Origin: a bacterium
Lineage (GTDB): Bacteria > Bacteroidota > Bacteroidia > B-17B0 > Aurantibacillaceae
NCBI GenBank assembly: GCA_029945625.1
Contig: JAQSCW010000055.1
Span: forward strand, 1-64,000
Reading direction: 5' to 3'
DNA length: 64,000 nucleotides
The notes below the pieces were generated by a model, which was not told the DNA's origin, did not search any database, and saw nothing but the letters and a program-made list of their open reading frames with translations. Positions 6,842 to 53,374 of this stretch are shown here, piece after piece; position 1 is the stretch's first letter; each line of letters opens with the position of its first letter. Both the position numbers and the translations under genes were made by a program.

Positions 6842-6878
6842 TGAAATAATTGATAAACTTACTAAAACCTCCTATAAA

Positions 6879-9068: not shown

Positions 9069-9094
9069 TCTTCGTGCAAGTGATGGATTGACAC

Positions 9095-9180: not shown

Positions 9181-9230
9181 TTTTACGTCCCACAAAAAAT
9201 TAATATCTTTAATGCTAAATACGTACTAAC

Positions 9231-9467: not shown

Positions 9468-9468
9468 A

Positions 9469-9774
9469 GTGCCTTCATACAAAATTCTAATTCTCGATCA
9501 AGCGATTTCTGAAATAGCTGAATCTTGTTTGTATTATAATAAAAAAATTGCAGGATTAGGTTTTGAGTTTGAAGAGGAAGTGTTTAAGCTCTTTGAAATA
9601 ATCAAGGAGAAACCGTTACTTTTTCCAATTAAATTCGCGCACATTCATGAAGCTATAGTGACGCGCTTTCCATTTGTAGTAAATTACGAAGTTTCCGGGC
9701 GGCAAATTATAATATCTGCTGTCTTTCACACAAAGAGACACCCGGGCAAAAAAACAAAACGAAGTCGTAGATAA
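9469..9774 (+). CDS. RelE/ParE-family toxin
   Basis: The 101-residue protein has the ParE-like pattern: an N-terminal strand and helix (YKILILDQAISEIAESCLYY), a GLGFEFEEEVFKLFEIIKEKPLLFP helix-turn region, and C-terminal strands (VTRFPFVVNYEV...IIISAVFHTKRHPGK). The final FHTKRHP is the usual ParE C-terminal strand. The start codon is GTG, one base after the antitoxin stop. Family members poison gyrase (ParE) or cleave mRNA on the ribosome (RelE); the sequence does not decide which. The frame is intact. Confidence 0.8.
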   Translation: MPSYKILILDQAISEIAESCLYYNKKIAGLGFEFEEEVFKLFEIIKEKPLLFPIKFAHIHEAIVTRFPFVVNYEVSGRQIIISAVFHTKRHPGKKTKRSRR

Positions 9775-9785
9775 AACCCACGTTG

Positions 9786-9806
9786 GGCGAAGCGTCTCGC
9801 TTCGCC
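9786..9806. repeat. Perfect 9-bp inverted repeat after the toxin gene
   Basis: GGCGAAGCG and CGCTTCGCC flank a TCT loop. A second small hairpin (AAGGC/GCCTT) follows. It has the position of a 3' hairpin for the toxin-antitoxin operon, but there is no T-tract, so I do not call it a terminator. Confidence 0.5.
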
Positions 9807-9889
9807 AGGCACTATAAGGCATTTTGCCTTGCAGAAATTCCGCTATTGAACGAATCGTCTCGATTTACATAACAGGGACTAATCTGAAC

Positions 9890-10194
9890 TCAAGCTCCTA
9901 CATATTCAAGAGCCGCTTTGGCAAAACCGGCCCATTTTTTACAGTGTACAAATGGAAGCTGCACCCATTCTTTCATGGGCCTTTTTTTTCCGGATGGATC
10001 AAATAATTTGGCACCCTCACAACTCATGGCCTTAATGTGAGCGTCGCCGCTTAATATAAATACCATTTCATTTTGGAAAAAGCAGATGAAGGTTTGCCCT
10101 GTAACTTAAAGCAGGGTTTGCCAAATAACTGACTTTGTTCGGCGCCTGCTAATTTTTTTCCGATTGACAAATAGAGGGTTTCTTCTTCGCGCAT
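9890..10194 (-). pseudogene. TfoX-like small protein gene, broken by one missing base
   Basis: Reading down from ATG 10194 gives MREEETLYLSIGKKLAG...SQLFGKPCFKLQGK. The frame then shifts at about 10091-10096 and continues in the next frame as TFICFFQNEMVFILSGDAHIKAM...LFDPSGKKRPMKEWVQ...KWAGFAKAALEYVGA before TGA at 9890-9892. Adding one base at the AAA-CC junction would restore KAFICFF and one continuous protein of about 100 residues. The joined sequence resembles the small TfoX/YjbR-like proteins common in Bacteroidota. It is either a recent pseudogene or a single-base sequence error. Confidence 0.65.
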
Positions 10195-10443
10195 AAGAAC
10201 AGTAGTATTGATTCTGAAAGCAATTTACGATTTTGAACAGTTAGAGTTTCATTATTTTTAGAGGTGAATCCTTCACAAAACGTTCGGCTATTAGTTCATT
10301 TCAGGTGATCATTCATCTCGTTTTGTTGCGTCGGCTAGTGCCTGTCTTCCGTGAAGTTAAATGTACAGAAGTCTGCCGTGATGCCAAAATACCACAGAAA
10401 CAAGCATTAGCCCAAACTGCTGTTATGCGATCGCCTTTTATTG
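10195..10443. other. Intergenic between pseudogene and antitoxin gene
   Basis: About 250 bases with no supported gene. I see no direct repeats that would mark a mobile-element boundary. Confidence 0.4.
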
Positions 10444-10770
10444 TCAAGCTAATTGCAGATGTTTTTTCTCAAGCTTCACGTTAAAATGTATGTCCGCTTT
10501 TAACGCTTTAAACACTTTTATGATGGTATCTATTGTCGCGCTGTTGGAACTACTTTCAAGTTTTGAAATTTGTGATTTTTGTACTCCAACTAAAACGCCT
10601 AATTGTTCTTGAGTCAAATTACGCTCTTGTCGTGCAGTTTTAATCATATGCCCTAGAACGTCCATACTTAATTCATACTCATAATCATCTCTTGATTTTG
10701 TTCCTTTTTTACCTACATATTTGTCCTTCATTTCGGCAAGCGAATAGGACTTTATTTCTTTCTTAGCCAT
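10444..10770 (-). CDS. XRE-family HTH antitoxin, HigA-like
   Basis: The 108-residue protein has a helix-turn-helix of the Cro/CI type at about 48-100 (LGHMIKTARQERNLTQEQLGVLVGVQKSQISKLESS...TIDTIIKVFKALKADI) after a charged N-terminal arm. Such proteins act as antitoxin and operon repressor for HigB/Gp49-like toxins. Its ATG lies three bases after the stop of the toxin remnant, in toxin-then-antitoxin order. The frame is intact although its toxin gene is not. Confidence 0.85.
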   Translation of the reverse strand: MAKKEIKSYSLAEMKDKYVGKKGTKSRDDYEYELSMDVLGHMIKTARQERNLTQEQLGVLVGVQKSQISKLESSSNSATIDTIIKVFKALKADIHFNVKLEKKHLQLA

Positions 10771-10773
10771 GAT

Positions 10774-11114
10774 TTATTTTTTAAGTTTAAATTCAAAATA
10801 TTGTTTTCTAATTTTTTCGGCTCTATCAATTTCGTTTTTTGGCACTTTGTCAACCTTTTTTATAAACCCGTGAGTCGCCAGTACCAGAGTGTCCGTAGAA
10901 TCTGTTTTGTCCCAAAATGCTAAAAGTCGAATTTGAAGCCCATTGTATTTGCTCCTAAATTCCCAAATGTCATTGGAAAGTTTTTTAAAAAGTTTTGGGT
11001 CATTTGTTTGTTCAGCAAGGTCAATGTTGTATAATATTTTTTTAATTGCTTAATATGTAGTCCTGAAATGAATCGATTTGCTTCTTCTAAAAACGTTGTC
11101 CGAAAATAGTGCAT
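10774..11114 (-). pseudogene. RelE/HigB (Gp49-like) toxin gene with a one-base frameshift
   Basis: From ATG 11114 the frame reads MHYFRTTFLEEANRF...HIKQLKK and then goes out of frame at a run of seven A (plus-strand T7, 11037-11043). With eight A the protein would continue ILYNIDLAEQTNDPKLFKKL...IWEFRSKYNGLQIRLLAFW...LATHGFIKKVDKVPKNEIDRAEKI to TAA at 10774. This gives about 113 residues with the Gp49-like signature (WEFR...HGFIKKxxKxPxxEIxxAxxI). The rest of the frame is clean, so the break is recent, phase-variable by slippage, or a homopolymer error. Confidence 0.75.
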
Positions 11115-11641
11115 TACTTTTTAACACAAATATAATGCAATTAGTTGTAGTTTCCATATTTAGAAACTTTGTCTGTGGCTTACGCCGGGTAAAGGTGACG
11201 CATAACGCTCAGGCCTAGCCAATTTTTGCCTGCAGGAACACTACTTTGCCAAATTATCCGGTTGGTATATGTATATGACAAAGGGAAAGCAACCGAAAAT
11301 AACACATCGCTATCAGAGCGAGATTTTGCGCCAGGGATGGAGCGGCCTGTCTGAGCTCTTTTTTATGAGCCTTTTTCAGGCGAAATAAAAAAAGCGAGTA
11401 GCGACAGCCCGTTAAGGCGCCCAAATAAATAAAGTGAAAATTAATATTAAACGGTCGAAGACCAACAAACAATTGTGGAATACGTGAAAGATTAACACCG
11501 CTTACACATGAGATCCCAAAACCTCAGAGTTCAGCAGCAGCTCTGCCTTGCGTTTTTTTCCTCCCTTGCTTTCTTAATGTATTTTACTTTTTTCATTTTC
11601 ATCTTTTCAGAGCCGGTCTCGAAAGGAAATTCCAACACCAT
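11115..11641. other. Intergenic, 527 bp, with one structured element
   Basis: No convincing gene is present. A plus-strand frame at 11508-11726 overlaps the 3' end of the opposite gene and looks spurious. The segment contains the hairpin-rich element at 11326-11422, described separately. Confidence 0.45.
11326..11422. repeat. Structured intergenic element (GCGCC...GGCGC closed)
   Basis: The outer arms GCGCC (11328-11332) and GGCGC (11416-11420) enclose AGGGATGGAGCGG on the left and GCGAGTAGCGACAGCCCG on the right. Between them is an inner hairpin (GCCTG 11345-11349 with CAGGC 11377-11381). From memory, this AGGGAT...AGCG...CAGCCCG layout resembles a structured motif found in intergenic regions of many Bacteroidota. 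Whether it is an RNA, a terminator or a mobile palindrome is unknown. Confidence 0.5.
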
Positions 11642-12355
11642 TTATCTGTACGAATGTGTAATGTACACCGGCAAATCGCCGATGAAATTCTGCACCTTCT
11701 CGGGTTTCATGGGGCGGTTTCGGTAGTACTTAATATAGTTTGCGTACCCTATCGTACTCATCCAATTATCAATCTGCAGTTTGTTGATACACTCTTCGTT
11801 GTAAGAAAGTAATTGATACCCCAAACCCACATCCAGTGTACGCTCTTCTGCTGCATTATGTAATTGATTTTTTCCTTTCGCCGAGTGCGATTTGAAATAG
11901 AAAGAAAGGAAATTAAAAAATCCACCGGTGCTCATGTCATCAATCAAGCCCATTTGGCTGCCTATCAAACCCAGTTGCGAATTAAAGCTCAAATTGCCAA
12001 TCACTACACTGTCGAGTGTTGATTTGGTGCTGTTGCTGAAGGTGATGTGGTAAACGCGCTGCGCCGGCGTTTTAAAGATGGAGAAAAAATAGGGACGGGT
12101 GCGTACCACATTCGAAGAGCGCTTAAAATCAACAATGATGTTTTTTGCGAGCATATGAGGGTAAAATTTGAGTACGTAATTAAACTGGTGAACAAGAATA
12201 GTATCCTTAAGTGTACTGCGGAAAACTACCCGTTTGGCTGAATCGTTTAGTTGGCCCACTATTTCCCTGCCGGGATTCTTGTAATACAGGCCCTGCGCGC
12301 TCACTTGGCTAATTAGCAACAACGAGATGGCAAAAATGAGCAGGCTTTTATGCAT
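11642..12355 (-). CDS. Secreted protein of unknown function
   Basis: The 237-residue protein starts with a clear signal peptide (MHKSLLIFAISLLLISQVSAQG). The mature part is mixed, with no repeats, no sorting domain and no cysteine pattern. It contains a conserved-looking central stretch (RTRPYFFSIFKTPAQRVYHITFSNSTKSTLDSVVIGNLSF) that may be beta-rich. I recognise no family. It is divergent from the YigZ gene with a 57-bp gap that must hold both promoters. Confidence 0.7.
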   Translation of the reverse strand: MHKSLLIFAISLLLISQVSAQGLYYKNPGREIVGQLNDSAKRVVFRSTLKDTILVHQFNYVLKFYPHMLAKNIIVDFKRSSNVVRTRPYFFSIFKTPAQRVYHITFSNSTKSTLDSVVIGNLSFNSQLGLIGSQMGLIDDMSTGGFFNFLSFYFKSHSAKGKNQLHNAAEERTLDVGLGYQLLSYNEECINKLQIDNWMSTIGYANYIKYYRNRPMKPEKVQNFIGDLPVYITHSYR

Positions 12356-12412
12356 GAACGAATTTAATTAATTTTTTCCACGCGATTAAATTACTTTTGT
12401 ACCGATTACCAG

Positions 12413-13027
12413 ATGTTATTTTCCGATTCATTTTTTACGGTCTCAAAACAAGCTGAAGTTCTTTTTAAAGACCGAGGCTCTAAGTTTTATGCTTTTTGTT
12501 ACCGCCTGCGGTCTGAATCTGAAATAAAGGAAAAATTACTTGAACTTAAAAAACAGCACCCTTCGGCAACTCACCAGTGTTATGCCTGGCGTCTGGGGCC
12601 CGACAAACAGGCCTTTCGGGTAAACGACGACGGAGAACCGTCGGGTACTGCCGGCAAACCTATCTTCGGGCAAATTCAGGCACACAACCTCAGTAATGTT
12701 CTCATTGTGGTGGTGCGTTATTTCGGGGGTACGCAACTGGGTGTGCCCGGACTGATTCATGCCTATAGAACCGCGGCCGCTGAAGCCATTGCATTAGCCG
12801 GCATTGAGGAAGAATTCATTTTGTTTGAATACCGTGCCGAATTTGGCATGGACGATACGAGTTCGGTGATGCGTTTGCTCAAGGAACTCGACGCGAAAAT
12901 AATTTCAAACAATTATCACGAAAATAACATACTGGTTTTTCACGTCAAAAAACAAAATAGCGACACGCTCGAAGAACGCATGAAGGAATTATACCGTGTT
13001 AAGTTGAAATTCATAACTTTGGTTTAA
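12413..13027 (+). CDS. YigZ/IMPACT family protein
   Basis: The 204-residue protein has the UPF0029 N-terminal domain with the family signature GDGEPSGTAGKP-like stretch (VNDDGEPSGTAGKPIFGQI, about 74-92) and VVVRYFGGTQLGVPGLIHAYRTAA (about 102-125), then a short C-terminal ferredoxin-like domain. Bacterial YigZ is of unclear function; the eukaryotic relative IMPACT regulates translation through GCN1/GCN2. A TACTTTTG -7 match at 12392-12399 lies just before the start. The next gene follows after 11 bases. Confidence 0.9.
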   Translation: MLFSDSFFTVSKQAEVLFKDRGSKFYAFCYRLRSESEIKEKLLELKKQHPSATHQCYAWRLGPDKQAFRVNDDGEPSGTAGKPIFGQIQAHNLSNVLIVVVRYFGGTQLGVPGLIHAYRTAAAEAIALAGIEEEFILFEYRAEFGMDDTSSVMRLLKELDAKIISNNYHENNILVFHVKKQNSDTLEERMKELYRVKLKFITLV

Positions 13028-13038
13028 TCTAAAAATAT

Positions 13039-13992
13039 ATGACAAAACACAATCGCCCGCTCGACTATTCTTTACTGAAAGAACTCTGTGCCATTCATGC
13101 TCCCAGTGGTAATGAAGTGGCCATGAAAGAATTTTTAATGAATCATATTCAGAAACACCGAGTGAATTGGAAACACCAGCCAAAGATCATTCAGGGTAAA
13201 GGATTCCAGGACAATATCATCCTTATTTTCGGCAAACCACGCACGGCTATTTTCGCCCATATGGACAGCATCGGCTTTACAGTACGATATGGAAAACAGC
13301 TGGTAAAAATAGGGGGGCCGGTTACTGCCTCCGGCATTAAATTAGTGGGTACCGACACACTTGGAACACAAGACGTAATTCTGCAGGCATCAAAAGATAA
13401 AAAAACCGGAGTCACTACTCTCGAATACAAAGCAGCACGAGATTTTGAGAGGGGAACCGAATTGCTGTTTAAACCGAATTGGCGAGAGAGCAAAGATTTT
13501 GTGCAATGTTGTTATATGGATAACCGATTGGGCATACTCAGCGCATTAAAAGTGGCCGAAACGTTAAAAAATGGTGCCATCGTATTCAGTACCTGGGAAG
13601 AACACGGAGGCGGCAGCGTGGCCTATTTACAGAAGTATTTAGTTGAGAAGTATAAAATCACGCAAGGGCTTATTTCCGATATCTCCTGGATCTCAGACGG
13701 CGTGCATCACGCAAAAGGTCCGGTAATTAGTATGCGCGACAGTTTAATTCCGCGAAGGAGTTTTGTAAACAAGATCATTGCCATTGCGAAAAAAAACAAA
13801 TGCGCCTTTCAATTAGAAATAGAAGGAGGCGGAGGGAGCGATGCCAAAGAACTCCAATTTTCAGATCATCCCTGGGATTGGTGTTTTATTGGAGCTGCCG
13901 AAGATCACGTGCATTCACCCGACGAAAAAGTTCACAAAAAAGATGCCGAGGGGATGGTACAACTCTACGAAGCAGTGATGAAAGAGCTCTAA
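13039..13992 (+). CDS. M42-family aminopeptidase
   Basis: The 317-residue protein has the two-metal M42/M20 arrangement: AHMDSIGF (about 74-81), CYMDNRLGILSA (about 156-167), TWEEHGGGSV (about 185-194), SDISWISDG (about 213-221) and HVHSPDEKVH near the C-terminus (about 293-302). M42 enzymes are cytoplasmic aminopeptidases trimming peptides from proteasome-like or general turnover; specificity is not readable here. It overlaps the 3' end of the convergent DUF1571-like gene by 4 bases. Confidence 0.88.
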   Translation: MTKHNRPLDYSLLKELCAIHAPSGNEVAMKEFLMNHIQKHRVNWKHQPKIIQGKGFQDNIILIFGKPRTAIFAHMDSIGFTVRYGKQLVKIGGPVTASGIKLVGTDTLGTQDVILQASKDKKTGVTTLEYKAARDFERGTELLFKPNWRESKDFVQCCYMDNRLGILSALKVAETLKNGAIVFSTWEEHGGGSVAYLQKYLVEKYKITQGLISDISWISDGVHHAKGPVISMRDSLIPRRSFVNKIIAIAKKNKCAFQLEIEGGGGSDAKELQFSDHPWDWCFIGAAEDHVHSPDEKVHKKDAEGMVQLYEAVMKEL

Positions 13993-14837
13993 AAATCGTA
14001 GGCGTCGTTGTCCCTGTCAAATTCATCGGCCTGAAAAGGTTTGTTAATTTGAATATGCGTGTAGTCGTAGCTTTCAAAAAGACCCATATCATCGTAGAGA
14101 CTGAGCGAAACAGGCAGCATCATTTTTTCTTCCAGAAACACCATCGCCTTCTTACAATACAAGGTGGGTACTTTTAAAACAGTTCCTTTTTTTAAATACC
14201 CAAAGTCGTTGAGCAAATTATTTTTGTAACGCAGTAAATAATCATTTACGCATAATTCGTAGGCGATCACGCTGGCCGTTTCTTTGTCGCGAACGGTATA
14301 ATTAACATAGGTGTAGTTAGTGTTTTCATATTCGAGTAAATGGCAGGTATACCCGTTCTTAACTGCCTTTCCACGATACGTGAAATTTTTGATGCCATCG
14401 CGGTCTTTGTTTATAGTGAGGGCCACCGATTTGCCTATAAATCCATACCCTAGTTCATGAATGGTATAGTGTTGGTTTTTGCGCATGAGATTGCCCCTCG
14501 GGTCAAGATTCAGCATCAAATAGGGAAACGTGTGTAATTTGATCAAGGCTTTAACTTCCGGCTTTTCGGAATCGTAGAGAATTTCCACATCCTTGCTGAG
14601 CCCTCTGAAATAGACTTTCTCAGGCCGGGTTTGCAATTTGATTTCAGATACGCTGTTAGAATATGTTTTTTCGATGCGCTCAATCGCATGCACGTTCTGT
14701 CGAAGAGTACGAATGTTTTTGATGGAGTCGTACATTTGCCCTAACAATTTTTCAGGCGAAACCGCTGGAGGAGAGAGAGATCTGAACGCAACTAGAAGAC
14801 CAGTGAAAAATAGGAAGAAAAAGGACCGGAAGCGCAT
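13989..14837 (-). CDS. DUF1571-like periplasmic/exported protein
   Basis: The 282-residue protein has an N-terminal hydrophobic signal (FFFLFFTGLLVAFRSLS). It is followed by a LolA/DUF1571-like body: helix SIKNIRTLRQNVHAIERI, then strands such as IKLQTRPEKVYFRGL and VEILYDSEKP. Proteins of this type are thought to bind lipophilic groups, but the function here is unknown. It ends in an acidic tail (DEFDRDNDAYDF). The coding end overlaps the M42 gene convergently, leaving no room for a classical terminator. Confidence 0.72.
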   Translation of the reverse strand: MRFRSFFFLFFTGLLVAFRSLSPPAVSPEKLLGQMYDSIKNIRTLRQNVHAIERIEKTYSNSVSEIKLQTRPEKVYFRGLSKDVEILYDSEKPEVKALIKLHTFPYLMLNLDPRGNLMRKNQHYTIHELGYGFIGKSVALTINKDRDGIKNFTYRGKAVKNGYTCHLLEYENTNYTYVNYTVRDKETASVIAYELCVNDYLLRYKNNLLNDFGYLKKGTVLKVPTLYCKKAMVFLEEKMMLPVSLSLYDDMGLFESYDYTHIQINKPFQADEFDRDNDAYDF

Positions 14838-41553: not shown

Positions 41554-42309
41554 ATGAGCAAAATTGCATTAGTAACTGGAGGTTCTCGCGGCCTGGGATA
41601 TAACATGGCACTTCGACTGGCCGAACAAGGACATGATGTGGTGATTACATATCTGAATAATCAGATAGAAGCTGAAAAATTAGTTGCCCTTGTGCAAACA
41701 ATGGGAAGAAAGTCGCTGGCATTAAAACTCGATCTGAACGATATAAAGAGTTTGGATGATTTTGTGGTCAAACTTTCACAATCGCTCACTCAAAAGTTCG
41801 GCACAAACAAATTTGATTTTTTAATCAATAATGCCGGTATGGGCGCTACTGTCCCATTTGAGGATGTGACCGAAGCGCTGTTCGATGAGTTTTTAAACGT
41901 GCATTACAAGGGGGTTTATTTTCTCACACAAAAGTGTTTGCCTTTGATAAATGAAGGCGGAAGAATTATAAATTTATCAAGTGGCACCACGCGCTTTGCA
42001 AACCCGGGGTACAGCGTATACGCATCAATGAAGGGGGCCATTGAGATTTTCACAAAGTACCTGGCAAAAGAATTAGGTAAAAGAAGGATCACTGCAAACG
42101 TGGTGGCTCCGGGACCAATAGAAACTGATTTTAATAATGCAGCCATCAGAAATAATCCGCAGCTAAAGACAATGCTGAGTAATAATACGCCTTTGGGAAG
42201 AGTGGGGGAGGCGCAGGACATTGGGGGCGTTGTAGCATTCTTATGTTCGGAAGATGCGCGTTGGATTAACGGACAAAGGATTGAAGTAAGTGGAGGAATT
42301 AACAGCTAG
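41554..42309 (+). CDS. SDR-family oxidoreductase (FabG-like)
   Basis: The 251-residue Rossmann protein has VTGGSRGLGYNMALRLAEQG (about 7-26), NNAGMGATVPFEDV (about 91-104), the catalytic Ser in NLSSGTTRF and YASMKGAIEIF (Tyr-x-x-x-Lys, about 153-157), and ends in the FabG-type VEVSGGIN-like tail (IEVSGGINS). It reduces or oxidises a carbonyl/alcohol with NAD(P)H; the substrate is not deducible. A TAAATTTG -7 match lies at 41529-41536. Confidence 0.88.
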   Translation: MSKIALVTGGSRGLGYNMALRLAEQGHDVVITYLNNQIEAEKLVALVQTMGRKSLALKLDLNDIKSLDDFVVKLSQSLTQKFGTNKFDFLINNAGMGATVPFEDVTEALFDEFLNVHYKGVYFLTQKCLPLINEGGRIINLSSGTTRFANPGYSVYASMKGAIEIFTKYLAKELGKRRITANVVAPGPIETDFNNAAIRNNPQLKTMLSNNTPLGRVGEAQDIGGVVAFLCSEDARWINGQRIEVSGGINS

Positions 42310-42411: not shown

Positions 42412-45400
42412 TTATTTCTGCACAACCAACTTTTTATAGAAAGTTCCGTTGGTGGTTTCAAATTTTATTAGGTAGGTGCCGTTTGCCAGGTCAGATACAT
42501 CAATCGTTTTAACCGAAACAAAATCACTACTTAACACTGCTCTGCCAATTAAATCGTAAAGCACATAATTTACTTTAGCTGTAGTGGTGGACCTAATGGT
42601 TAAATGATCATTTGCCGGATTTGGGAAAATGGTAATCATTACCTGTTTGTTCTCAATCTGCCGAATGCCGGTTACAGAGGAATTAAGATTAAGCGTAGAC
42701 GATCCGCTGCTGATTACAGCCAGATTTCCTGCCTGATTAATCTTATTGGCGTTGGCCAGGTTGAGGTTCAGAACAGAGTTGCCCGGCAAACCGGACTTCA
42801 TCTTAAAGTGAAATTCAGCAATTACACCGTTTCCACCTACATTCATACCATCACTGCGTACACTTGCGGCATACAGAATGCCGTTAGTGAAATAAGTTTT
42901 CCTGAACTGCACATTTTGATTGCTGGCATTGAGGAAAGAAGGCAGATACACCAGATAAGCCGAATCGGGTTCAATAAGTGACTGATCAAATGAAAGATCA
43001 AAAGACACGCCATACACTTGTGCAAGCGAATTAGTAGCACTTCCCAGTAAAATATCCACTTTGTTCCACTGTCCGGTATCGAACAATCCCACAGAAGGGT
43101 TTATGCTCAAATCGTTATTATCGCCACTCGTTCCTTGCGGTTTAAACGCATGCGTCAATAAGAAGTTATTATATATCGCTAAGGTGTCACCTAAATTAAC
43201 CACCCCGTCACCATTGCAGTCGGCATGGCACTTATTTTTGCCCGTGCTCACCGTACCGGCCCAATTGTTGGCGAACTGACTGATGTATGAATTTCCACCG
43301 GGACTTCTAAGTGTGCCCGTGTTGTTGTAGGCCAATCCTAATTCAAACACGTCAACTGCCGATACGATGCCGTTGCTGTTTGCATCGCCGGGCCACACAT
43401 TTGAGCATAATGTATCAACAAATACAGTGAATGTCCTAACCCCAAAACAACCGCCGATTCCTGAACCAAGTACGGTGTAAACAGTAGTTGATAAAGGGAT
43501 GATATTAATGCTGGAATTAGTGGAACCCGTGCTCCAAGTATAGGTGCTGAGACCCGACGCGGTAAAGCTGGCACTCGAACCTCGGCACACGGAGGAGGAA
43601 GATGCACTTAGAGTAATGCTTCCTGTTTGCACGCCAACACAGGCACTGGCTGATGAGATACAACCAAAACTATTGGTGCCGTATACATTATAACATGCAT
43701 TTGCACTGGGGTTAACGTTCACCGTTGGTGAGTTTGATCCAATATTCCAAGTATACGTATTGGCCCCCGACGCTGATAATGTAAATCCTCCTCCAATGCA
43801 AACTGTATTAGCACCCGCAATGGCAATTACGGGTGTGGTGAGAAAGTTAAAGCATTTAATGGCACTATTTGTACATGAACCGTTTGACCCTATTACTGTA
43901 AAACAATTATTGGAGAATGTGGGAGTTACGGTAACAACCTGCGATACGGTATTCATTGGTAACCAAGTGTAAGAAGTGGCTCCTGTGGCGTAGATTGGAG
44001 TGCTGGTGCCGGGGCAAATGCTGGTGGTTCCAAAAACAGTGATCACGGGCGGAGAAGTCATTGTTAAACAATTGGTAGCAGTGCCAATGCATCCAACGCT
44101 GGTCATGCCTATCACTGTATAGCAGGTACTAACGGTTGGCGTTATGATGATACCTCCTGTACTATACGTGCTCGTTACATTAAATGGTAACCAGGTAAAT
44201 GTCATCGCTCCCGATGCCGTTAAAGTTTTGCTCTGTCCTGCACAAAATGACCCTCCGGTTGCGCTGATAACAGGATTGCTATAAACAGTAATACATCTTG
44301 ATCCATAACTTGGGCACAAGGTGCCATTGCTGCTATATACATAATAACACGTATTCACACTTGGACTTACAACAATAGTGGTAGCCGTGATATTCCCGGG
44401 CATCCAGGTATAATTCTGTGCACCCGATGCCGTGAGCGTAGTGCTTCCTCCGTTACAATAGGAAGTAGGTCCCGCTACGGCAATCGCTGAACCTGACATT
44501 AAGCTAAGACAAACAGTAGTGTAGGTGATGCAACCCGCGCCATTGTCACCTCGAACCGTGAAACAAGTTGCACCGGTTGGCGTAATTGTTACCACACTAC
44601 CTGAATAAGTTGCTGTGCCCATAAACCACAAATAGCTTGTCGCCCCGGAAGCGGTATAAGAAGAGGGACTTCCTGCACAAACAGTCATGTTTCCTAAAAC
44701 TGTTACAGTAGGAGAGACGCCAATACTGACACATTTCACGGCCGTATTTGTGCATCCTTGAACATCGCCAATTACAGTATAACAAGTATTTGCAGTGGGT
44801 GTGATCACCATGCTTTGCGCCACAGTATTAGAGGGCAACCAGGTATAGGAAGTAGCACCCGTAGCGTAAATGGTACCGCTACTAGCTGAACAAACAGTTG
44901 AAGTTCCGCCAACAGTAAGTGAGGGAGGAGACATAAGCGACAAACAATTGGTGGCAGTTCCGGTGCAGCCGATACTCGTCATGCCCAGAACCGTATAGCA
45001 AGTGGCAGCAGTGGGTGTCATTACCACTACTGAGCCCGTGGTATTGAATGGCAACCAGGTATAAGAATTGGCGCCCGAAACAGTGAGAGTCTTGGTTTGG
45101 CCGATGCAAAAAGATCCCCCGCTGGCACTGAGTGAAAGATTCGTGCCCACGGTCACGCACTTACTTGCAAGCGTGGTACATCCCGATCCATTACTGCCGT
45201 AAACGTAATAACATTGGTTTGCGGTAGGGGTCACCACAATGTTGGCACCCGATATATTTCCGGGAAGCCAGGTATAGGAGGCTGCTCCGGAGACAGAGAG
45301 TGTTGCACTTTGTCCGGTACACACCGCACTTGGACCTGTAATGGTTAAGGTGGGACCGCCGGCAGACACCGTTATACAAGCTCCGGTGTATGATGCGCAA

Positions 45401-46164
45401 CCTGTACCATTATAACCTCCCAAACTAAAGCACGTAGTGGCTGAAGGTGTTAACACAATTGATGTTGTTGTAAATATTTGTGTACCCACAAACCATTGAT
45501 ACGACGCAGCACCGGCAGCAACAAAAGTGGCACTGCCCCCTGCGCAAACAGAGCCGGTACCAATCACAGAAACCGTTGGCTGTGGTACCACACTCACACA
45601 ACGAACCGCTGTATTGGTACATCCCAAGGAGGTCATTCCCAAAACAGTATAACATGCACTGCCGGTTGGGGTCACGGTGATAGAGGCTGCGGTTTGACCA
45701 CCCGGAAGCCAGGTGAAATTAGCTGCTCCGGAGGCAGATAAACTAATGGGATTATTTTGGCAAACACTTGAATTACCGGAAATAGTGACAACAGGGGCGC
45801 AAACTATAGTAGAGTTGGCAAGCGTGTAAGTCACGAGTACCGGGGTTCCCGGAGTCACAGTACTATTAAATGCATAACAACGTATCGTGTACGTGCCGCA
45901 GCAGGGGAATGAAACGAGAGCGGTGGAACCATTTCCCGTAAAAGTAAATACGGCAGTGCAAGACGATGGAGTGGGGCCTGTGGCATTCCACGTATAATTG
46001 GTGACGCCGGCAACTGTATTTGTTACTGTCGCCATTAAAGTATTATTACCCGAGCTATAACATTGCGACGTCGAACTCAGCGACATGGTAAAGGCTTGGG
46101 CATTTGCTTGTGGCTGACCAAAAACAAAAAAAAGCGCGGGAATTAATAGGTAGATTTTTTTCAT
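42412..46164 (-). CDS. Large T9SS-secreted protein: 11 Ig-like Cys repeats, dockerin-like, cohesin-like, sorting domain
   Basis: The 1,250-residue protein starts with a signal peptide (MKKIYLLIPALFFVFGQPQANAQA) and a first domain with PCCGTYTIRC. Eleven Ig-like repeats of about 70 residues follow (about 124-905), each of the type VCxG...SGAxxYTWLP...TPT...CYTVxG...GC...C, with about four Cys. Then come two dockerin-type Ca-binding loops (DANSNGIVSAVDVFELGL and DCNGDGVVNLGDTLAI), a cohesin-like region (about 1020-1150) and a type A sorting domain (IFPNPANDHLTIRS...DLANGTYLIKF...KKLVVQK). It should be surface-exposed. Repeats 2-5 and 6-9 look like a duplicated block. Confidence 0.88.
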   Translation of the reverse strand: MKKIYLLIPALFFVFGQPQANAQAFTMSLSSTSQCYSSGNNTLMATVTNTVAGVTNYTWNATGPTPSSCTAVFTFTGNGSTALVSFPCCGTYTIRCYAFNSTVTPGTPVLVTYTLANSTIVCAPVVTISGNSSVCQNNPISLSASGAANFTWLPGGQTAASITVTPTGSACYTVLGMTSLGCTNTAVRCVSVVPQPTVSVIGTGSVCAGGSATFVAAGAASYQWFVGTQIFTTTSIVLTPSATTCFSLGGYNGTGCASYTGACITVSAGGPTLTITGPSAVCTGQSATLSVSGAASYTWLPGNISGANIVVTPTANQCYYVYGSNGSGCTTLASKCVTVGTNLSLSASGGSFCIGQTKTLTVSGANSYTWLPFNTTGSVVVMTPTAATCYTVLGMTSIGCTGTATNCLSLMSPPSLTVGGTSTVCSASSGTIYATGATSYTWLPSNTVAQSMVITPTANTCYTVIGDVQGCTNTAVKCVSIGVSPTVTVLGNMTVCAGSPSSYTASGATSYLWFMGTATYSGSVVTITPTGATCFTVRGDNGAGCITYTTVCLSLMSGSAIAVAGPTSYCNGGSTTLTASGAQNYTWMPGNITATTIVVSPSVNTCYYVYSSNGTLCPSYGSRCITVYSNPVISATGGSFCAGQSKTLTASGAMTFTWLPFNVTSTYSTGGIIITPTVSTCYTVIGMTSVGCIGTATNCLTMTSPPVITVFGTTSICPGTSTPIYATGATSYTWLPMNTVSQVVTVTPTFSNNCFTVIGSNGSCTNSAIKCFNFLTTPVIAIAGANTVCIGGGFTLSASGANTYTWNIGSNSPTVNVNPSANACYNVYGTNSFGCISSASACVGVQTGSITLSASSSSVCRGSSASFTASGLSTYTWSTGSTNSSINIIPLSTTVYTVLGSGIGGCFGVRTFTVFVDTLCSNVWPGDANSNGIVSAVDVFELGLAYNNTGTLRSPGGNSYISQFANNWAGTVSTGKNKCHADCNGDGVVNLGDTLAIYNNFLLTHAFKPQGTSGDNNDLSINPSVGLFDTGQWNKVDILLGSATNSLAQVYGVSFDLSFDQSLIEPDSAYLVYLPSFLNASNQNVQFRKTYFTNGILYAASVRSDGMNVGGNGVIAEFHFKMKSGLPGNSVLNLNLANANKINQAGNLAVISSGSSTLNLNSSVTGIRQIENKQVMITIFPNPANDHLTIRSTTTAKVNYVLYDLIGRAVLSSDFVSVKTIDVSDLANGTYLIKFETTNGTFYKKLVVQK

Positions 46165-46466
46165 GGTCTGACGTGGTAATTAATTGCCACTCTACCAAAG
46201 GTAAGCCCCTTTTACACATATTGTTCTGCAGTAACTCATCGAAATCCCTAATTCACTCAATTTTCACTTCATTTCACATGATTTCAATTTTCATCATGTT
46301 AAAATGAGGGACAGAAATTTTTATTAAAAATGATTCTAAATAAGGGTACTCTCCTTTTAATATACGATAAAGATTTTCTTAAACCGAAACATTAAAATTT
46401 ATCAAGCAAAAGAAGATCAACTCGGAAGTATTTAGTCCTTTTTTTTAAAGGAACTAATCACGAAAC
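46165..46466. other. Intergenic with operator-like palindrome
   Basis: 302 bases between two paralogues. GTGGTAATTAATTGCCAC (46173-46190) lies 9-26 bases upstream of the 46164 start and is palindromic except for two positions. A weak hairpin (TTAGTCCTTT / AAAGGAACTAA) at about 46432-46456 lies just after the next gene's stop, without a T-run in the right direction. Confidence 0.5.
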
Positions 46467-46878
46467 TTACTTCTCAATAATTAATTTCTTAAACGCTTTT
46501 CCCGAATCACTTTCTAATTTCACAAGATAAGTGCCATTCGCAAGAGCTCCAATCTCCAGAGTACTTGCGTCTGAAAATTTCCCCTCTACTACTAGTTGAC
46601 CAATGAGATCATAAATAAGGTAACTCGTTTCTTCGTGACGGGAATTTTGAAAAATCAACTTGTCCCGGGCCGGATTTGGAAAAAACTGCACCGAATTTTC
46701 AAATGCATCCATGTTCTCTATCCCAACTAAATTGGTGCTGACAAGAACTGAAGTGGTACCTCCTGTCAGAGCTGTTAGAGCACCCAAATTTCCAATCATT
46801 TGTGCGTTGCTAACTGTCAAGTTTATGGATGAATTGTTAGGAGCATCCGCTTTTACTTTAAACCACAATTCAGCAATT
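46463..46878 (-). repeat. Nearly identical 3'-end block, copy A
   Basis: This 416-bp stretch pairs with 48426-48841 at a 1,963-bp offset. By eye I count five mismatches. Sequence outside both ends is clearly different. It encodes the end of the cohesin-like region and the whole sorting domain. Confidence 0.9.
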
Positions 46879-48281
46879 ACTCCGTTTCCACTAACATTCG
46901 TATGGTCTGTTCGCACACTCGCACCATAAATTTTAGAATTATTTAATTGCCCTTTTCTGAATTCAATATTCTGGCTGGAAACCTTTAAAAATGAAGGAAT
47001 ATAAAGTAGATAAGGACTATTTGATTCCACAAAAGATGGATCTATATCCAAATCAAAAACCAATCCATAAATATTATTTATGTTATTGCTTGAACTTCCC
47101 AATAGAATATCCGCCTTATTCCATTGACCTACATAGCATATATTATTATCCGCAACCAGTGTTATATCTCCATTACTTCCAGGGCCTGCTGGTTTAAATG
47201 TATGGGTTAAAGAGAAATTATTAGTTATGGCCATCGTATCGGAATTATTCACAATACCATCCCCATTACAATCTGCATGACATTTATTCTTGCCAGTACT
47301 CACAAGGCCGGTCCAGCTGTTTGCAAATTGTGAAACATAAGTATTTCCTCCGGGAGTCCTAGCGGCTCCTGTTGCCCCGAACTGCAAACCTAATTCTAAA
47401 ACGTCACTGGAATTTACAACGCCGTCACTGTTAGCGTCTCCCGGCCACACATCTGCGCAGTTTGAATTTACAAATACCGGAATCGAAGAAGTAGACACAC
47501 ATCCATTGTTATCTGTTCCAGCTACTGAGCAAACAGTATTTGTGCCGGGTAAAATAGTGAAAGTGGGAGTAGTGGCACCATTTGACCAGGTGTAGCTAAG
47601 TGAACCATTTGCAGAAAAGCTGGTACTTGAACCCAAACAAACAGTATTGCTTCCAGACACGTTAGGGGGAACGGGGGTAATGGTAGGGCAACCTATATTC
47701 ACTGAATAAGAGGAATAACAAGTATTGGTATTATCACGACAAATAAAAATGACGGTGCCGCACGAGGTAATCGTAAAAGTGCTGACAAAACCAAGTGTAT
47801 TACTTGGAATGACTGTTGAAGTCACTCCCGGAATCAGCAGTGTGTAACTCACCGGCCCACCAGGTGTGGGAACGGTAGAAGCGCCACTGATATTCAATGT
47901 ATTCACAAAATTAGGGCAAATGGGTGAATACGAAGTACACAAGGGTGTAAATGTGGGACCTGGCGTATAACATAATACACTTACTGTTTTAGATGTGATG
48001 CAATTGCTGGAATTATCTTTAAATTCTACAGTGTAGGTACCACTCGCATTTAAATTTACTATAGATGAGGAAGTTCCTATACTAGAGATAGGAACATTTC
48101 CCAACGTCGACCATTTGGAGCTGATGTTGGCCGAGTAGTTAGAGGTGGCCATTAAAGTTTGTCCCGAAGTGCAACTTGGAATCGTAAATGTGCCAGGACA
48201 GGTTACGATGGGACACTGTGCCTTAGTAATAGTGTATCCTGTTAAAATTAAACCGAAAATTAAATTGAGTTTTTTCATCAT
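46467..48281 (-). CDS. T9SS-secreted paralogue with dockerin-like and cohesin-like regions
   Basis: The 604-residue protein (start MMKKLNLIFGLILTGYTITKAQ, a signal peptide, hence 48281 and not the upstream codon) has two or three Ig-like Cys-bearing domains, one Ig-like repeat of the paralogue type (NTVCLGSSTSFSANGSLSYTWSNG), dockerin-type loops (DANSDGVVNSSDVLELGL and DCNGDGIVNNSDTMAI), a cohesin-like region and a type A sorting domain. Its last 130 residues match those of the next gene except for one substitution, in a 416-bp nearly identical DNA block. It is expected to be secreted and surface-attached. Confidence 0.87.
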   Translation of the reverse strand: MMKKLNLIFGLILTGYTITKAQCPIVTCPGTFTIPSCTSGQTLMATSNYSANISSKWSTLGNVPISSIGTSSSIVNLNASGTYTVEFKDNSSNCITSKTVSVLCYTPGPTFTPLCTSYSPICPNFVNTLNISGASTVPTPGGPVSYTLLIPGVTSTVIPSNTLGFVSTFTITSCGTVIFICRDNTNTCYSSYSVNIGCPTITPVPPNVSGSNTVCLGSSTSFSANGSLSYTWSNGATTPTFTILPGTNTVCSVAGTDNNGCVSTSSIPVFVNSNCADVWPGDANSDGVVNSSDVLELGLQFGATGAARTPGGNTYVSQFANSWTGLVSTGKNKCHADCNGDGIVNNSDTMAITNNFSLTHTFKPAGPGSNGDITLVADNNICYVGQWNKADILLGSSSNNINNIYGLVFDLDIDPSFVESNSPYLLYIPSFLKVSSQNIEFRKGQLNNSKIYGASVRTDHTNVSGNGVIAELWFKVKADAPNNSSINLTVSNAQMIGNLGALTALTGGTTSVLVSTNLVGIENMDAFENSVQFFPNPARDKLIFQNSRHEETSYLIYDLIGQLVVEGKFSDASTLEIGALANGTYLVKLESDSGKAFKKLIIEK

Positions 48282-48425
48282 CTTACAATAAATAACTTTA
48301 TGAATTGGATGATATAGAATATTCAAAAACCATGCCAGAGCATTATTATTGTTTGAAATAAAGAAAATGGCAGTCCAATTTGGAAAGCGCAGCTTCTATG
48401 CAAAAATTTTGAGGTCCAAGATGGA

Positions 48426-48841
48426 AAACTTACTTCTCAATAATTAATTTCTTAAACGCTTTTCCCGAATCACTTTCTAATTTCACAAGATAAGTGCCAT
48501 TCGCAAGAGCTCCAATCTCCAGAGTACTTGCGTCTGAAAATTTCCCCTCTACTACTAGTTGACCAATGAGATCATAAATAAGGTAACTCGTTTCTTCGTG
48601 ACGGGAATTTTGAAAAATCAACTTGTCCCGGGCCGGATTTGGAAAAAACTGCACCGAATTTTCAAATGCATCCATGTTCTCAATCCCAACTAAATTGGTG
48701 CTCACAAGAACTGAAGTGGTACCTCCTGTCAGAGCTATTAGAGCACCCAAATTTCCAATCATTTGTGCGTTGCTAACTGTCAAGTTTATAGATGAATTGT
48801 TAGGAGCATCCGCTTTCACTTTAAACCACAATTCAGCAATT
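48426..48841 (-). repeat. Nearly identical 3'-end block, copy B
   Basis: Partner of 46463-46878. Divergence begins abruptly upstream of 48841 in coding direction, although the proteins remain similar there. This is what gene conversion or a recent recombination limited to the 3' end would leave. Confidence 0.9.
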
Positions 48842-50643
48842 TTTCCATTTCCACTCACGTTGGTTAGATCGGTTCTGACAGAGGCCGCGTAAATTTTAGT
48901 GTTCAGCAATTGCGCCTTTCTAAACTCAATATTTTGATTTGCTGCGTTTAAGAATGAAGGTGTATAGGCCAGGTAGGCAGAGTTGGGTACTATGTAAGTT
49001 TGATCGAGATCAAGGTCAAACACGATGCCATATAATTGACTGATAATTTTTGTCGCTGATCCCACAACAACATTTACTTTGCACCATTGTCCCGGGTAAG
49101 CGTAGTTTTGACTTGCAACCAACGATACATCCGTATTCGCTCCCGGTCCTGCCGGCTTGAAAGCATGTGTCAACGCGAAGTTGGCCACTACCGCAACAGT
49201 ATCGGCATTATTCACTACTCCATCGCCATTACAATCGGCATGGCATTTGTTTTTTCCTGTACTAATGGTTCCTGTCCAATTACCGGCGTATTGACCTATA
49301 TAGCTGTTTCCACCGGGAGTTCTAGCCATTCCGGTACTCGCGAATTGGAGTCCCAGCTCCAGCACATCCAGTGTACTTACAATTCCGTCGCTGTTTGCAT
49401 CTCCCGGCCAAACATCCGAACAAGCTGCGTTAGGAATAACAATTAGGTTGGTAAATCCAATGCAACCGTTAGCGCCGGTTCCATACACCATGTAGTTGAC
49501 GGAGGCAGTGGGAAGAGCGCTTAATGTTGGTGTGTTTATGGCGGGACTTGTATTCCACGTATAGGAGTTTGCACCACTGGCAGTAAATCTAATGCTTGAA
49601 CCCAAACAAACAGTATTACTCCCTCCAATTGATAGCGTTGGTGAAGGCGACACCGTGACACAGTTTAACGCGTTATTGGTACATCCCGCCACGCTTGTGC
49701 CAATGAGGCCAAAACACGTAGTTACTAAGGGACTAACGGTTATCAATGTATTGGTGGAGCCGGTGGACCAGGTATAACTCTGCGCATTTCCAAGAGCGCT
49801 AAATGTAAGACTAGTACCTGCACAAAGGGTGGAGGTACCTCCAATTATTACTGTTGGTGGTGGATTTACAAAAATGGTGACCGTTGAAGAGCTGGGACAA
49901 GTAACTCCGGCACCGCAACTGCAAATTGTGTAGGTGGTGGTTACCGTTGGAGTGAGAACCGGATTTGCTGAATTATTATTTCCGGGCTGAGTATTAAAAG
50001 AAGGTCCTCCACTTAGGCTCAGAGTTGTTGAACCTCCCAAACAAACATTGGTGTTTCCACCAATTGACAGTGTATAAGTTGGAATAACGCTCATGCAATA
50101 AGAGGGGCTCATGTTAAAACAGCCGAGTGCATTAGTAGCAAGAAGGGTATAACAGATGTTGCTGGTAGGAGCGACGATAACATTAGCACCCAAAATATTT
50201 CCGGGAATCCAAGTATACGTTGTGCCCCCCAGTCCGCTCAGCGTACAACTGCTTGCACTACACAGGGAACCACCGGGTGCTGTTGATGTCACACTTAAAT
50301 TAGCGGCGGTGTTACAAGCTACGCTCACCGTCTGAAAAACTGTTGAAAGAGTGGAAGTCCCGCTCAAGGCCACACAGGAAACTGTGTAAATACCACAACA
50401 AGGGTAAGTGATCAACGTTGAGAGCCCGTTTATACCGGGTGTTTGGGTGCCTGAACAACTTCCGGAATTAACTGACCATGAATAACTGGTGGCCCATGTA
50501 GCAGTTGAAGTAACTGCGCCATAAGCCTTGCTGTTGATACACAATCCCTGTGACCAGGCAGAAATACCTAATACTTGCCCGTAGGTGAAAAATGAAGAAG
50601 TTACAAGAAACATCAACATTCCGCTTAATATAAATTTTTTCAT
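48430..50643 (-). CDS. T9SS-secreted paralogue with dockerin-like and cohesin-like regions
   Basis: The 737-residue protein has a signal peptide (MKKFILSGMLMFLVTSSFFTYGQ), a first domain with PCCGIYTVSC like that of the 1,250-residue paralogue, about four Ig-like Cys repeats (for example TSTLCAGTSLTFSALGNAQSYTW), dockerin-type loops (DANSDGIVSTLDVLELGL and DCNGDGVVNNADTVAV), a cohesin-like region and a type A sorting domain. It is the first of three paralogues in minus-strand order. Role is unknown; adhesion or matrix assembly is an inference from architecture. Confidence 0.87.
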   Translation of the reverse strand: MKKFILSGMLMFLVTSSFFTYGQVLGISAWSQGLCINSKAYGAVTSTATWATSYSWSVNSGSCSGTQTPGINGLSTLITYPCCGIYTVSCVALSGTSTLSTVFQTVSVACNTAANLSVTSTAPGGSLCSASSCTLSGLGGTTYTWIPGNILGANVIVAPTSNICYTLLATNALGCFNMSPSYCMSVIPTYTLSIGGNTNVCLGGSTTLSLSGGPSFNTQPGNNNSANPVLTPTVTTTYTICSCGAGVTCPSSSTVTIFVNPPPTVIIGGTSTLCAGTSLTFSALGNAQSYTWSTGSTNTLITVSPLVTTCFGLIGTSVAGCTNNALNCVTVSPSPTLSIGGSNTVCLGSSIRFTASGANSYTWNTSPAINTPTLSALPTASVNYMVYGTGANGCIGFTNLIVIPNAACSDVWPGDANSDGIVSTLDVLELGLQFASTGMARTPGGNSYIGQYAGNWTGTISTGKNKCHADCNGDGVVNNADTVAVVANFALTHAFKPAGPGANTDVSLVASQNYAYPGQWCKVNVVVGSATKIISQLYGIVFDLDLDQTYIVPNSAYLAYTPSFLNAANQNIEFRKAQLLNTKIYAASVRTDLTNVSGNGKIAELWFKVKADAPNNSSINLTVSNAQMIGNLGALIALTGGTTSVLVSTNLVGIENMDAFENSVQFFPNPARDKLIFQNSRHEETSYLIYDLIGQLVVEGKFSDASTLEIGALANGTYLVKLESDSGKAFKKLIIEK

Positions 50644-50759: not shown

Positions 50760-51551
50760 TTATGACTCCAATTCAAACCCATCCGCATCCAAACCCACCG
50801 GAAAAAGTTTTCGAAAATCGTCCAGATAAGATCGATCTAAATCTATTGTTGAAACCTGTTCTTTGTTTCTTTCTAGTGCAGAAATAATTTCCCCCCTCGG
50901 ATTAATCACCACACTGTCTCCGCTATGATCAAAACCATTTCCGTCTTTTCCAACGCGATTCACACCTATTACATAACATTGATTCTCGATAGCTCGTGCA
51001 ATGAGCAAGTGTTTCCAGGCATAACTTCGTACTTCGGGCCAATTGGCCACATAAATCAGCACGTCGTAAGTCCATTCATTTTTTTTTGCATCATACTTGT
51101 TGCGCGACCAAACCGGAAATCTCAAATCGTAACATACTAAAGGACAAATTTTCCAATCCTCTATTTTTGTAATGATTTTTTTTGTGCCCGAAGCATAATG
51201 TTGATCTTCTTTGGCCATCCTGAACAAATGTCGTTTATCATAGTGTTCAAAAGTTCTATCTGGTTTCATCCAGTATAGCCGGTTATAATAGTTTTCTCCT
51301 TCTTTCACTGAAACACTTCCCGTAATCGGTGTTTGTGTTTCGTCAGATTTTTTTCTCAACCAATTCAAACTTTCCCCTGGCTGGTCCTCGGCAAATTTTT
51401 GAGGATTCATGGTGAAACCCGTGCTAAACATTTCGGGTAATACAATAAGATCGCTTTTCTCTTCCAGTGAGTTTATCAAAGAATCGAAATGAGAAAGATT
51501 TCCTTGAGGGTCTTCCCATTTTAAGTCCGACTGAATTAAAGTTATTTTCAT
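50760..51551 (-). CDS. Nitrilase-family amidase (YafV/omega-amidase-like)
   Basis: The 263-residue carbon-nitrogen hydrolase has the Glu-Lys-Cys triad: Glu in IVLPEMFSTGF (about 39), Lys in YDKRHLF (about 108) and Cys in CPLVCYDLRFP (about 143). The RFP and GFTMNP features fit the YafV branch, which hydrolyses omega-amides such as 2-oxoglutaramate. The ATG overlaps the upstream stop (ATGA), so I choose 51551 over a TTG two codons earlier. It forms an operon with the TPR membrane protein. Confidence 0.9.
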   Translation of the reverse strand: MKITLIQSDLKWEDPQGNLSHFDSLINSLEEKSDLIVLPEMFSTGFTMNPQKFAEDQPGESLNWLRKKSDETQTPITGSVSVKEGENYYNRLYWMKPDRTFEHYDKRHLFRMAKEDQHYASGTKKIITKIEDWKICPLVCYDLRFPVWSRNKYDAKKNEWTYDVLIYVANWPEVRSYAWKHLLIARAIENQCYVIGVNRVGKDGNGFDHSGDSVVINPRGEIISALERNKEQVSTIDLDRSYLDDFRKLFPVGLDADGFELES

Positions 51552-53374
51552 TTGCAATACGTTTTTAAGGCGCTTTTCGCCGGTTCAATGCCATGCTCCG
51601 CAGCAATGCGTAAGTCTGAACATGGATCTTGTTTCAAATTAACACGCGCAACGCCTTTCCAATAATAAGCTTCGTAATATTCCGGATTTAGCGACACACA
51701 AAGTTCAAGATCATCAAGACTGCTTTTAAAATCTTGCTTTTTGCCGTAAATAATGGCGCGCTTAAAATAATAGGACGCTTCATCCACCGCTGCTCTAATA
51801 GCTTTATTGTATTCGGCCATGGCCTCATCCAGCTTGTTTAAATCATTATAACAATTGCCCAAGATGAAGTGAGCCCGGGCATTTTCAGGTTCCATCAACA
51901 GCACGGTATTTGCATCAGTCATGGCCTTTGGAATGTCGTTTAGCATGTAATACGCAGCCGCCCGGCCTGTATATGCCTTACTGTAATTGTATAACTGAAT
52001 TGTTTGGTTAAAATTTTGGATGGCCAGTTCAGCACTTCTGTTTTTTAAAAGGAGCAGTCCACGGTTGTAATACCCTTTGTAATTGTTTGGGGCCGCATCT
52101 ACCGCTCTATTGAAATATTCCAGTGCTTTACGATCTTCACTTCTAAACATGCATTCAACGCCTGCACTATTGAGCGCCACAAATTGCTGTGGGTATTTTT
52201 TGAGAATGTCCTCGTAAAGAGTAATTGAGTTTTTCCACACACCAGCGCGTGAAAATCCCATAACTGAAAAAAAGATAGCGAGGATGATGCATAAGACTGT
52301 TTCAGGGATCTTAATCAGAGAAACAAATTTCCCCAGCACCCAGCCCAATCCAATGATAGGAACATACAGATAACGATCAGCGAACAACACTTCTCCAAAA
52401 GGAAGAAACTGTAACACCAGAACAAGGTTGACGAGTATTAAAAATAAAACACCTAACCAGGCAAGGTTGTTTTTCTTAATCAGATAATAGACGAGAAATA
52501 TTATACCTATCAACATTAAAAATCCCAGTGCAAAAACGCTCCATTTTAGTTGCGGATAGGGATAAATGACACTTAGTTTTACCGGTAAGATAAAGAGGAT
52601 AAGATATTTCATCAAAGCAAAACCCGCAAATCCCAGTCTTTGATAAAATGGAAATTCATGCGCATGATTAATGAACTGATCGGCCGTTTGTGTTTGGATA
52701 TTAACGAAGCCGATGACAACTGATACGACAAAGAAAGGAATCTTGTTCAGCAACTGTTTTAAGATAAGCTTTTTATCCAGCAAGAGATCCAGACACACTA
52801 AACTGAGAGGAAACACCACCACAGATGATTTACTCAAACATCCTAAAACAAAGAATAAAAACACAAGGAAATAGCGCGAAATGTTCTTCTTTGATTTGAA
52901 TTCTACGTAATACAATAGGCCTAGCAGATAGAAGGTGGTAGAAAGTACATTCTTGAGTTCGCCGATCCAGGCAACCGATTCCATCTGCAGAGGATGCAGC
53001 AAAAAAACAATAGCCCCCAGCAAAATAATTGGCTCGCTTTGAAACAATTTTCTACCGAGGCGATACACCAAAACGCCATTGATCAGGTGAAAAAATATAT
53101 TTACAAAATGATGTGCGCCATCGCTGTTTTCGAAAAGGAACCAACCTAGCGCATGCATAATCATGGTAATCGGCACATAATTACCCACATAATGACTGCT
53201 AAAAAAGGCTTTTAGGTCGAATTGCTGTACGGCTGCGTTTTTAAAGACCATTTCGGGATCATCCCAACTGATGTGCCCAAAAACTAATAGTCTAAAATAA
53301 ACGATCACTGCCAGAAGCAGAACAAATGAAAATACTAAATGTTCCTTTAAAAGATGTTGCCGGTTTTTGAGCAC
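51548..53374 (-). CDS. Polytopic GT-C-like membrane protein with C-terminal TPRs
   Basis: The 608-residue protein has about 11 membrane segments (residues about 12-380) with an acidic first loop (HISWDDPEMVF), as in GT-C glycosyltransferases that use lipid-linked sugars. About six TPR units follow (about 400-600, for example ALEYFNRAVDAAPNNYKGYYNRG). The layout resembles TMTC/O-mannosyltransferase-like proteins of Bacteroidota. The acceptor is unknown. Its neighbour is the amidase, and glycosyltransferases lie on the other strand. Confidence 0.78.
   Translation of the reverse strand: MLKNRQHLLKEHLVFSFVLLLAVIVYFRLLVFGHISWDDPEMVFKNAAVQQFDLKAFFSSHYVGNYVPITMIMHALGWFLFENSDGAHHFVNIFFHLINGVLVYRLGRKLFQSEPIILLGAIVFLLHPLQMESVAWIGELKNVLSTTFYLLGLLYYVEFKSKKNISRYFLVFLFFVLGCLSKSSVVVFPLSLVCLDLLLDKKLILKQLLNKIPFFVVSVVIGFVNIQTQTADQFINHAHEFPFYQRLGFAGFALMKYLILFILPVKLSVIYPYPQLKWSVFALGFLMLIGIIFLVYYLIKKNNLAWLGVLFLILVNLVLVLQFLPFGEVLFADRYLYVPIIGLGWVLGKFVSLIKIPETVLCIILAIFFSVMGFSRAGVWKNSITLYEDILKKYPQQFVALNSAGVECMFRSEDRKALEYFNRAVDAAPNNYKGYYNRGLLLLKNRSAELAIQNFNQTIQLYNYSKAYTGRAAAYYMLNDIPKAMTDANTVLLMEPENARAHFILGNCYNDLNKLDEAMAEYNKAIRAAVDEASYYFKRAIIYGKKQDFKSSLDDLELCVSLNPEYYEAYYWKGVARVNLKQDPCSDLRIAAEHGIEPAKSALKTYCK

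Follow-up and report, generated by a model that had tools for sequence, protein, structure and literature searches.

Recent gene conversion very likely homogenized the 3' ends of two tandem type IX secretion cargo genes in a member of the Aurantibacillaceae

The window analyzed here, a 64,000-nucleotide stretch of one contig from a bacterium of the Aurantibacillaceae, contains an array of three paralogous genes on the minus strand. Gene A (42412..46164) encodes 1250 amino acids, gene B (46467..48326) encodes 619 when read from a TTG codon, with an ATG 15 codons in, and gene C (48430..50643) encodes 737. All three are predicted to be type IX secretion system (T9SS) type A cargo, as evidenced by matches to the curated sorting-domain model TIGR04183 (50.8 bits in A, 52.4 in B, and 45.9 in C; cutoff, 23), and B and C would thus be tandem cargo paralogues that lie beside A. 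The sorting domains of B (46473..46682) and C (48436..48645) are also on the minus strand, and profile matching indicates a resemblance to the solved T9SS CTDs 8glk and 8glj. The same genome encodes SprA, as well as at least 150 T9SS type A sorting domains, all above the cutoff, among the 150 of 254 candidates that were scored.

Gene B encodes an N-terminal display region, a dockerin-like segment, a cohesin fold, and the sorting domain, of which the last three constitute a 330-residue C-terminal module. Gene C has a B-like architecture with a different N-terminal region. The dockerin-like segment of B (47190..47459, minus strand; module residues 1 to 90) matches PF00404 at 26.8 bits (cutoff, 22.9), and B is the only one of the three proteins to exceed that cutoff. 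The cohesin-fold domain of B (46725..47171, minus strand; module residues 97 to 245) was delimited with an AlphaFold model and VIA-align; the model aligns with 6kgf_C over 135 residues (Z 15.7, rmsd 2.0), and the Pfam Cohesin score of 20.6 bits is under the cutoff of 24.1. The mean pLDDT of the module model is 65.5, and its dockerin-like part is of low confidence. The occurrence of a dockerin-like segment and a cohesin fold in a single T9SS cargo protein (46725-47459 and 48688-49422) is an observation in its own right, and these parts could pair within or between copies, letting the proteins assemble.

The array is flanked by a minus-strand gene that we take to be nitrilase-like (50760..51557) and, on the opposite side, by a plus-strand gene that is presumably of the SDR type (41554..42309). 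Both appear to be conserved neighbors, as matches to the former lie beside array genes in loci L061, L073, L076, and L078, and matches to the latter do so in L073 and L079. Parts of this gene order recur in genomes G001, G009, and G030 and in the MAG of L061, and the number of array genes differs between species.

B and C are nearly identical at their 3' ends. The block occupies 46463..46878 in B and 48426..48841 in C (both minus strand); in B, it begins with the third base of module codon 194 and extends 4 bases beyond the stop codon. A sequence-only reading had estimated by eye about five differences between the blocks, and a direct base comparison found exactly 5 mismatches in 416 positions, which in the first copy are 46719, 46740, 46774, 46827, and 46854. 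Read in the coding sense, the codon pairs at these sites are ATA/ATT, GTC/GTG, ACA/ATA, TCC/TCT, and GTA/GTG; four are synonymous, and one is a T/I difference. The longest exact run within the tract is 256 bases. A multicopy element was ruled out by a search of the organism's own 4.1-Mb genome, which found two copies of the block only.

The sharp loss of identity that had been described at both block ends was borne out. Upstream of the tract in the coding sense, there are 211 differences over the next 576 aligned bases. Codon alignment places 7 differences in the last 414 coding bases, of which 2 sit in the boundary codon, outside the block, and the contrast between tract and upstream sequence (5/414 versus 211/576) gives a P value of ~1e-50 by Fisher's test. 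When codons were shuffled across the last 330 codons, the longest identical run and the tract each gave P = 0.0005, the floor for 2000 shuffles. Past the coding sequence, B and C have in common the stop codon and 4 further bases (7 bases in total), and beyond the stop only 20 of 60 bases agree. The block (5/416) is therefore a sharply bounded stretch of high identity within homologous sequence, as a gene-conversion tract should be. The genes had also been called only moderately similar elsewhere, which is apt for the 193 module residues before the block (66% amino acid identity); the N termini are 33% identical.

The position of the upstream edge informs what was exchanged. Because the tract starts at residue 194 of the module, within the cohesin-fold domain, this edge is not a domain boundary, and the tract contains the last third of that domain, a linker, and the sorting domain. 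The earlier label of a sorting-domain cassette is right in that the sorting domain is included and imprecise in that the edge falls mid-cohesin; a cassette bounded by domain borders on both sides is excluded. Since it starts inside a domain and ends where homology ends, the tract appears to be the product of homologous recombination rather than a domain cassette.

Silent sites show the contrast too, which is a further mark of a gene-conversion tract. Fourfold degenerate sites of B and C agree at 57 of 60 positions in the tail, versus 17 of 48 across module residues 1 to 193 and 9 of 52 in the N termini, and so the parts of this one gene pair date from different times. Slow change at the 3' end is not a general rule, because the tails of all six cross-species pairs of N-terminal orthologues agree at only 5 to 9 of 19 to 28 fourfold sites. 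Base composition was compared with a view to the donor: GC3 is 0.34 in the tail, 0.35 and 0.30 in the other parts of B, and 0.40 and 0.42 in those of C, and in other family members too the tails have lower GC3.

The relationships of the N termini across species conflict with those of the tails, judging from protein comparisons. For instance, the N terminus of C has 54% identity, across 95% of its length, to that of a G009 gene that occupies the same place beside the nitrilase-like gene, and 56% identity, across 98%, to that of G010C13_1, whose contig ends nearby. The tail of C, by comparison, is 99% identical to that of B, 41% to that of the G009 gene, and 42% to that of G010C13_1. Similarly, the N terminus of B is nearest to that of G030_far (47%), a gene located elsewhere in G030, outside the array, and the tails of these two genes are 39% identical. 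Within genomes, all six neighbor pairs compared combine N termini of 32 to 38% identity with module parts of 66 to 90%. The three genes of G010 C13 have N termini at 32 to 37%, a domain part at 87 to 90%, and tails at 61 to 73%; the a/b pair of G010 C37 has values of 34%, 83%, and 57%, and the 1/2 pair of G001 has values of 38%, 85%, and 84%. The tails in G010 are thus less alike than the domain that precedes them, and one pair is at background (12 of 34 fourfold sites).

Tree-based AU tests addressed the same conflict in two C-terminal parts, using 20 of 33 gene rows under a simple model, LG+G4 with the mixture off. The rows derive from 41 that were found, of which 8 were dropped before tree building (7 duplicates of other loci and L078_6736, which is cut by a contig end), and G011_x was left out of the tail tree. 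Constraining the N-terminal orthologues of C together was rejected in both parts (p-AU of 2.3e-43 and 2.7e-55), as was constraining those of B (p-AU of 0.0099 and 0.0031), for clades that were named after a tree of the same parts had been viewed. Placing G010C13_1 with G009_1 gave p-AU values of 0.028 and 0.040, and placing G001_2 with G011 gave 0.021 and 0.095, a rejection in one part only. Placing G010C37_a with G009_last was rejected in neither C-terminal part (p-AU of 0.121 and 0.061). A pattern in which 5' parts are alike between lineages and 3' parts are alike within them, the type known from Helicobacter pylori, is accordingly found in the window and in G010C13 and more weakly in G001; in G010C37, the contrary grouping was not rejected.

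A screen of neighboring cargo genes asked how often 3'-terminal tracts occur. The set comprised 88 same-strand T9SS cargo pairs no more than 8 kb apart in 43 clusters, 23 from the window's own genome, 11 from G001, and 9 from G030. Clusters were hand-picked from sorting-domain matches, of which 150 of 254 (own), 150 of 315 (G001), and 150 of 316 (G030) candidates were scored, and, for G001 and G030, from the matches listed, so that the three genomes have at least 23, at least 11, and at least 9 clusters, respectively. The L111 cluster is without any pair within 8 kb. A tract was called where the last 70 codons were at least 0.88 identical, the upstream sequence was at most 0.84 identical, and P was ≤0.01, thresholds that were chosen after the table had been viewed. 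By these thresholds, a tract is present in 9 of the 88 pairs, which belong to 5 of the 43 clusters: the window and L101 (2 of 23 own clusters) and L114, L116, and L119 (3 of 11 in G001). With the mutual duplicates L114 and L116 counted once, the independent loci number four. None of the nine G030 clusters screened has such a tract, nor does the C49 pair of the window's own genome, and L113 (upstream identity, 0.90) and L073 (P = 0.145) fall outside the thresholds.

The shuffle test, which presumes even conservation, gave P values of ≤0.01 for 21 of the 88 pairs; the best segment reaches the 3' end in 11 of these and is internal in 10, and several of the internal segments are short and probably represent conserved domains. 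Outside L122, 11 of 12 pairs with a segment score of at least 150 have segments that reach the 3' end, the exception being L128. L122 itself (G030, 187593-194487) consists of three tandem T9SS cargo genes that are at least 99% identical over the last 330 codons, and its three pairs are near-identical throughout.

Individual loci illustrate these patterns. L101 (contig C45 of the same genome as the window, 2462-11741) holds three tandem glycine-rich T9SS cargo genes, of which gene Z resembles X more closely than Y over most of the windows in its second half and yet has one mismatch to Y in the final 140 bases ahead of the stop. L114 and L116 are duplicated three-gene T9SS cargo arrays that lie 1.2 Mb apart in G001. 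Their duplicate genes 1280040 and 2530907 retain 85 to 97% protein identity in ten 60-column windows, against 71% in the first window and 39% in the last, and the last window of 1280040 is protein-identical to that of its neighbor, 1284232. These comparisons indicate a sorting-domain exchange confined to the last 60 codons of this duplicate pair, which otherwise differs only weakly. L128 (G030, 2987769 and 2990703) has the opposite pattern, with high upstream identity and a divergent terminal sorting domain, and in the third gene of L116, a similar upstream part is likewise followed by a sorting domain that diverges.

We consider it very likely that the B/C tract reflects recent gene conversion within the array and is one case of a recurrent homogenization of the C-terminal module. 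The suggestion of gene conversion or recent recombination made in the sequence-only reading is upheld by synonymous divergence that is almost nil within the tract but at saturation elsewhere in the pair, together with the conflicting histories of N termini and tails. A nonreciprocal, presumably RecA-dependent homologous recombination event would have put the last ~137 codons of one gene onto its neighbor, be it B or C, with a tract that started within the cohesin-fold domain and stopped where homology runs out, at the stop codon. The copies are now set apart by four silent differences and one amino acid difference. The module of dockerin-like segment, cohesin fold, and sorting domain would be homogenized repeatedly within the array, and the N-terminal display regions, which are without DNA homology to their neighbors, would keep their own between-species history. 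Several observations count against this explanation or against a simple 3' rule: the unrejected test for G010C37_a, the rejection in one part only for G001_2, the G010 tails, L128 and the third gene of L116, the absence of tracts in the G030 clusters screened, and the location of G030_far outside the array.

Other explanations were weighed against gene conversion. First, domain shuffling may have worked in reverse, such that a gene with its tail was duplicated recently and a new N-terminal region then recombined onto one copy. That the nearest N-terminal relative of B lies outside the G030 array does suggest that N termini may move. Nevertheless, 34% of residues differ in the 193 module residues before the tract, so a new N terminus alone cannot account for an edge inside the module, and the N terminus of C keeps a syntenic orthologue beside the nitrilase-like gene in G009; we regard this account as very improbable.

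Second, unequal crossing-over, by a deletion and a duplication in succession, might have made the common tail in place of conversion. Array gene number varies between species, and direct repeats permit such events. A computed crossover between the copies loses 1963 bases and, for the join tested, leaves a gene that stays in frame and encodes the same protein as C, so the proposal that the two direct copies could delete the gene between them would hold in principle. As a source of the tract, however, crossing-over requires more than one step, and the flanks past the B and C stop codons are unrelated, which makes it very improbable. Third, an assembly artefact that copied one tail from the other is more improbable again: the 256-base exact run exceeds many short reads, but five differences, four of them silent, separate the copies, and G001, which is a single-contig genome, has comparable tracts. 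Finally, although the export signal lies in the tail, strong purifying selection there without recombination can be dismissed, as the silent sites are alike as well and the tails of cross-species orthologues are saturated.

Paralogue A provides a further comparison. Its tail is divergent, with 35.5% identity to that of B, as emerged when the suggested check against the third paralogue's end was run. The longest runs that A has in common with B and C across the 330 codons are 14 and 12 bases, respectively, which speaks against recent exchange of A with either gene.

The idea that exchange keeps secretion signals uniform finds no support as a need, because sorting domains are diverse, as the tail of A exemplifies; in the window's own genome, 37 of 41 matches to the B module are at 23 to 34% identity. 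A structural study, in the part available, likewise describes CTD identities as generally very low and CTDs as incompatible between species (PMC11285876). On account of that incompatibility, selection on the tails may still operate. We think it unlikely that the 3' half of the genes in tandem T9SS cargo arrays, comprising module and sorting domain, is, across the genus, repeatedly overwritten from neighbors as a general, selected renewal of the anchor and export end while N-terminal display varies. Passive homogenization, which would mainly follow where homology survives, is the simpler account.

The closest precedent is the babA/babB and homA/homB genes of H. pylori, for which PMC3960876 refers to Pride and Blaser (2002). 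The likeness lies in surface-protein paralogues whose 3' ends are alike within a lineage. In the available part of one source, the 3' segments of both gene pairs are described as being under concerted evolution; the 5' and middle parts of babA/babB are alike between strains, the 3' parts are alike within a strain, and intragenomic gene conversion is invoked (PMC3960876). That part does not state whether the loci are adjacent, and its evidence is drawn from strains, whereas the present comparison is made between species and concerns tandem T9SS cargo genes of the Bacteroidia. Porphyromonas gingivalis offers T9SS cargo of the same phylum that also has identical sequence between genes. According to the available part of another source, rgpA, kgp, and hagA contain repeats that are identical both inside a gene and from one gene to another, and recombination is named as the cause of domain rearrangement (PMC5266723). 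Those repeats are described there as internal adhesin domains, while the B/C tract is a 3' end that includes the sorting domain, in adjacent genes. No description of 3'-end concerted evolution of T9SS cargo appeared among the titles and abstract openings listed by full-text searches of one open-licence library. The B/C case adds an example of a process already known, from a different phylum and secretion system, and involves no new mechanism.

Because tails follow the species and N termini follow the gene, trees of array-borne T9SS cargo that use the C-terminal part mislead on gene orthology. These arrays also constitute a natural test of whether homogenization of an export or anchor domain is selected or is a consequence of surviving homology.

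Minor features were observed near array genes elsewhere. Beside the array gene in the MAG of L061, at 9417-14266, lie open reading frames that we take to encode a Y-family DNA polymerase, a short IS200-like transposase, and a DnaE-like polymerase. In G009 (L079), direct repeats of 267 bases that are 94% identical lie close to the array at 2613-3101, and a second repeat pair occupies 411-585 and 1094-1268 (93%).
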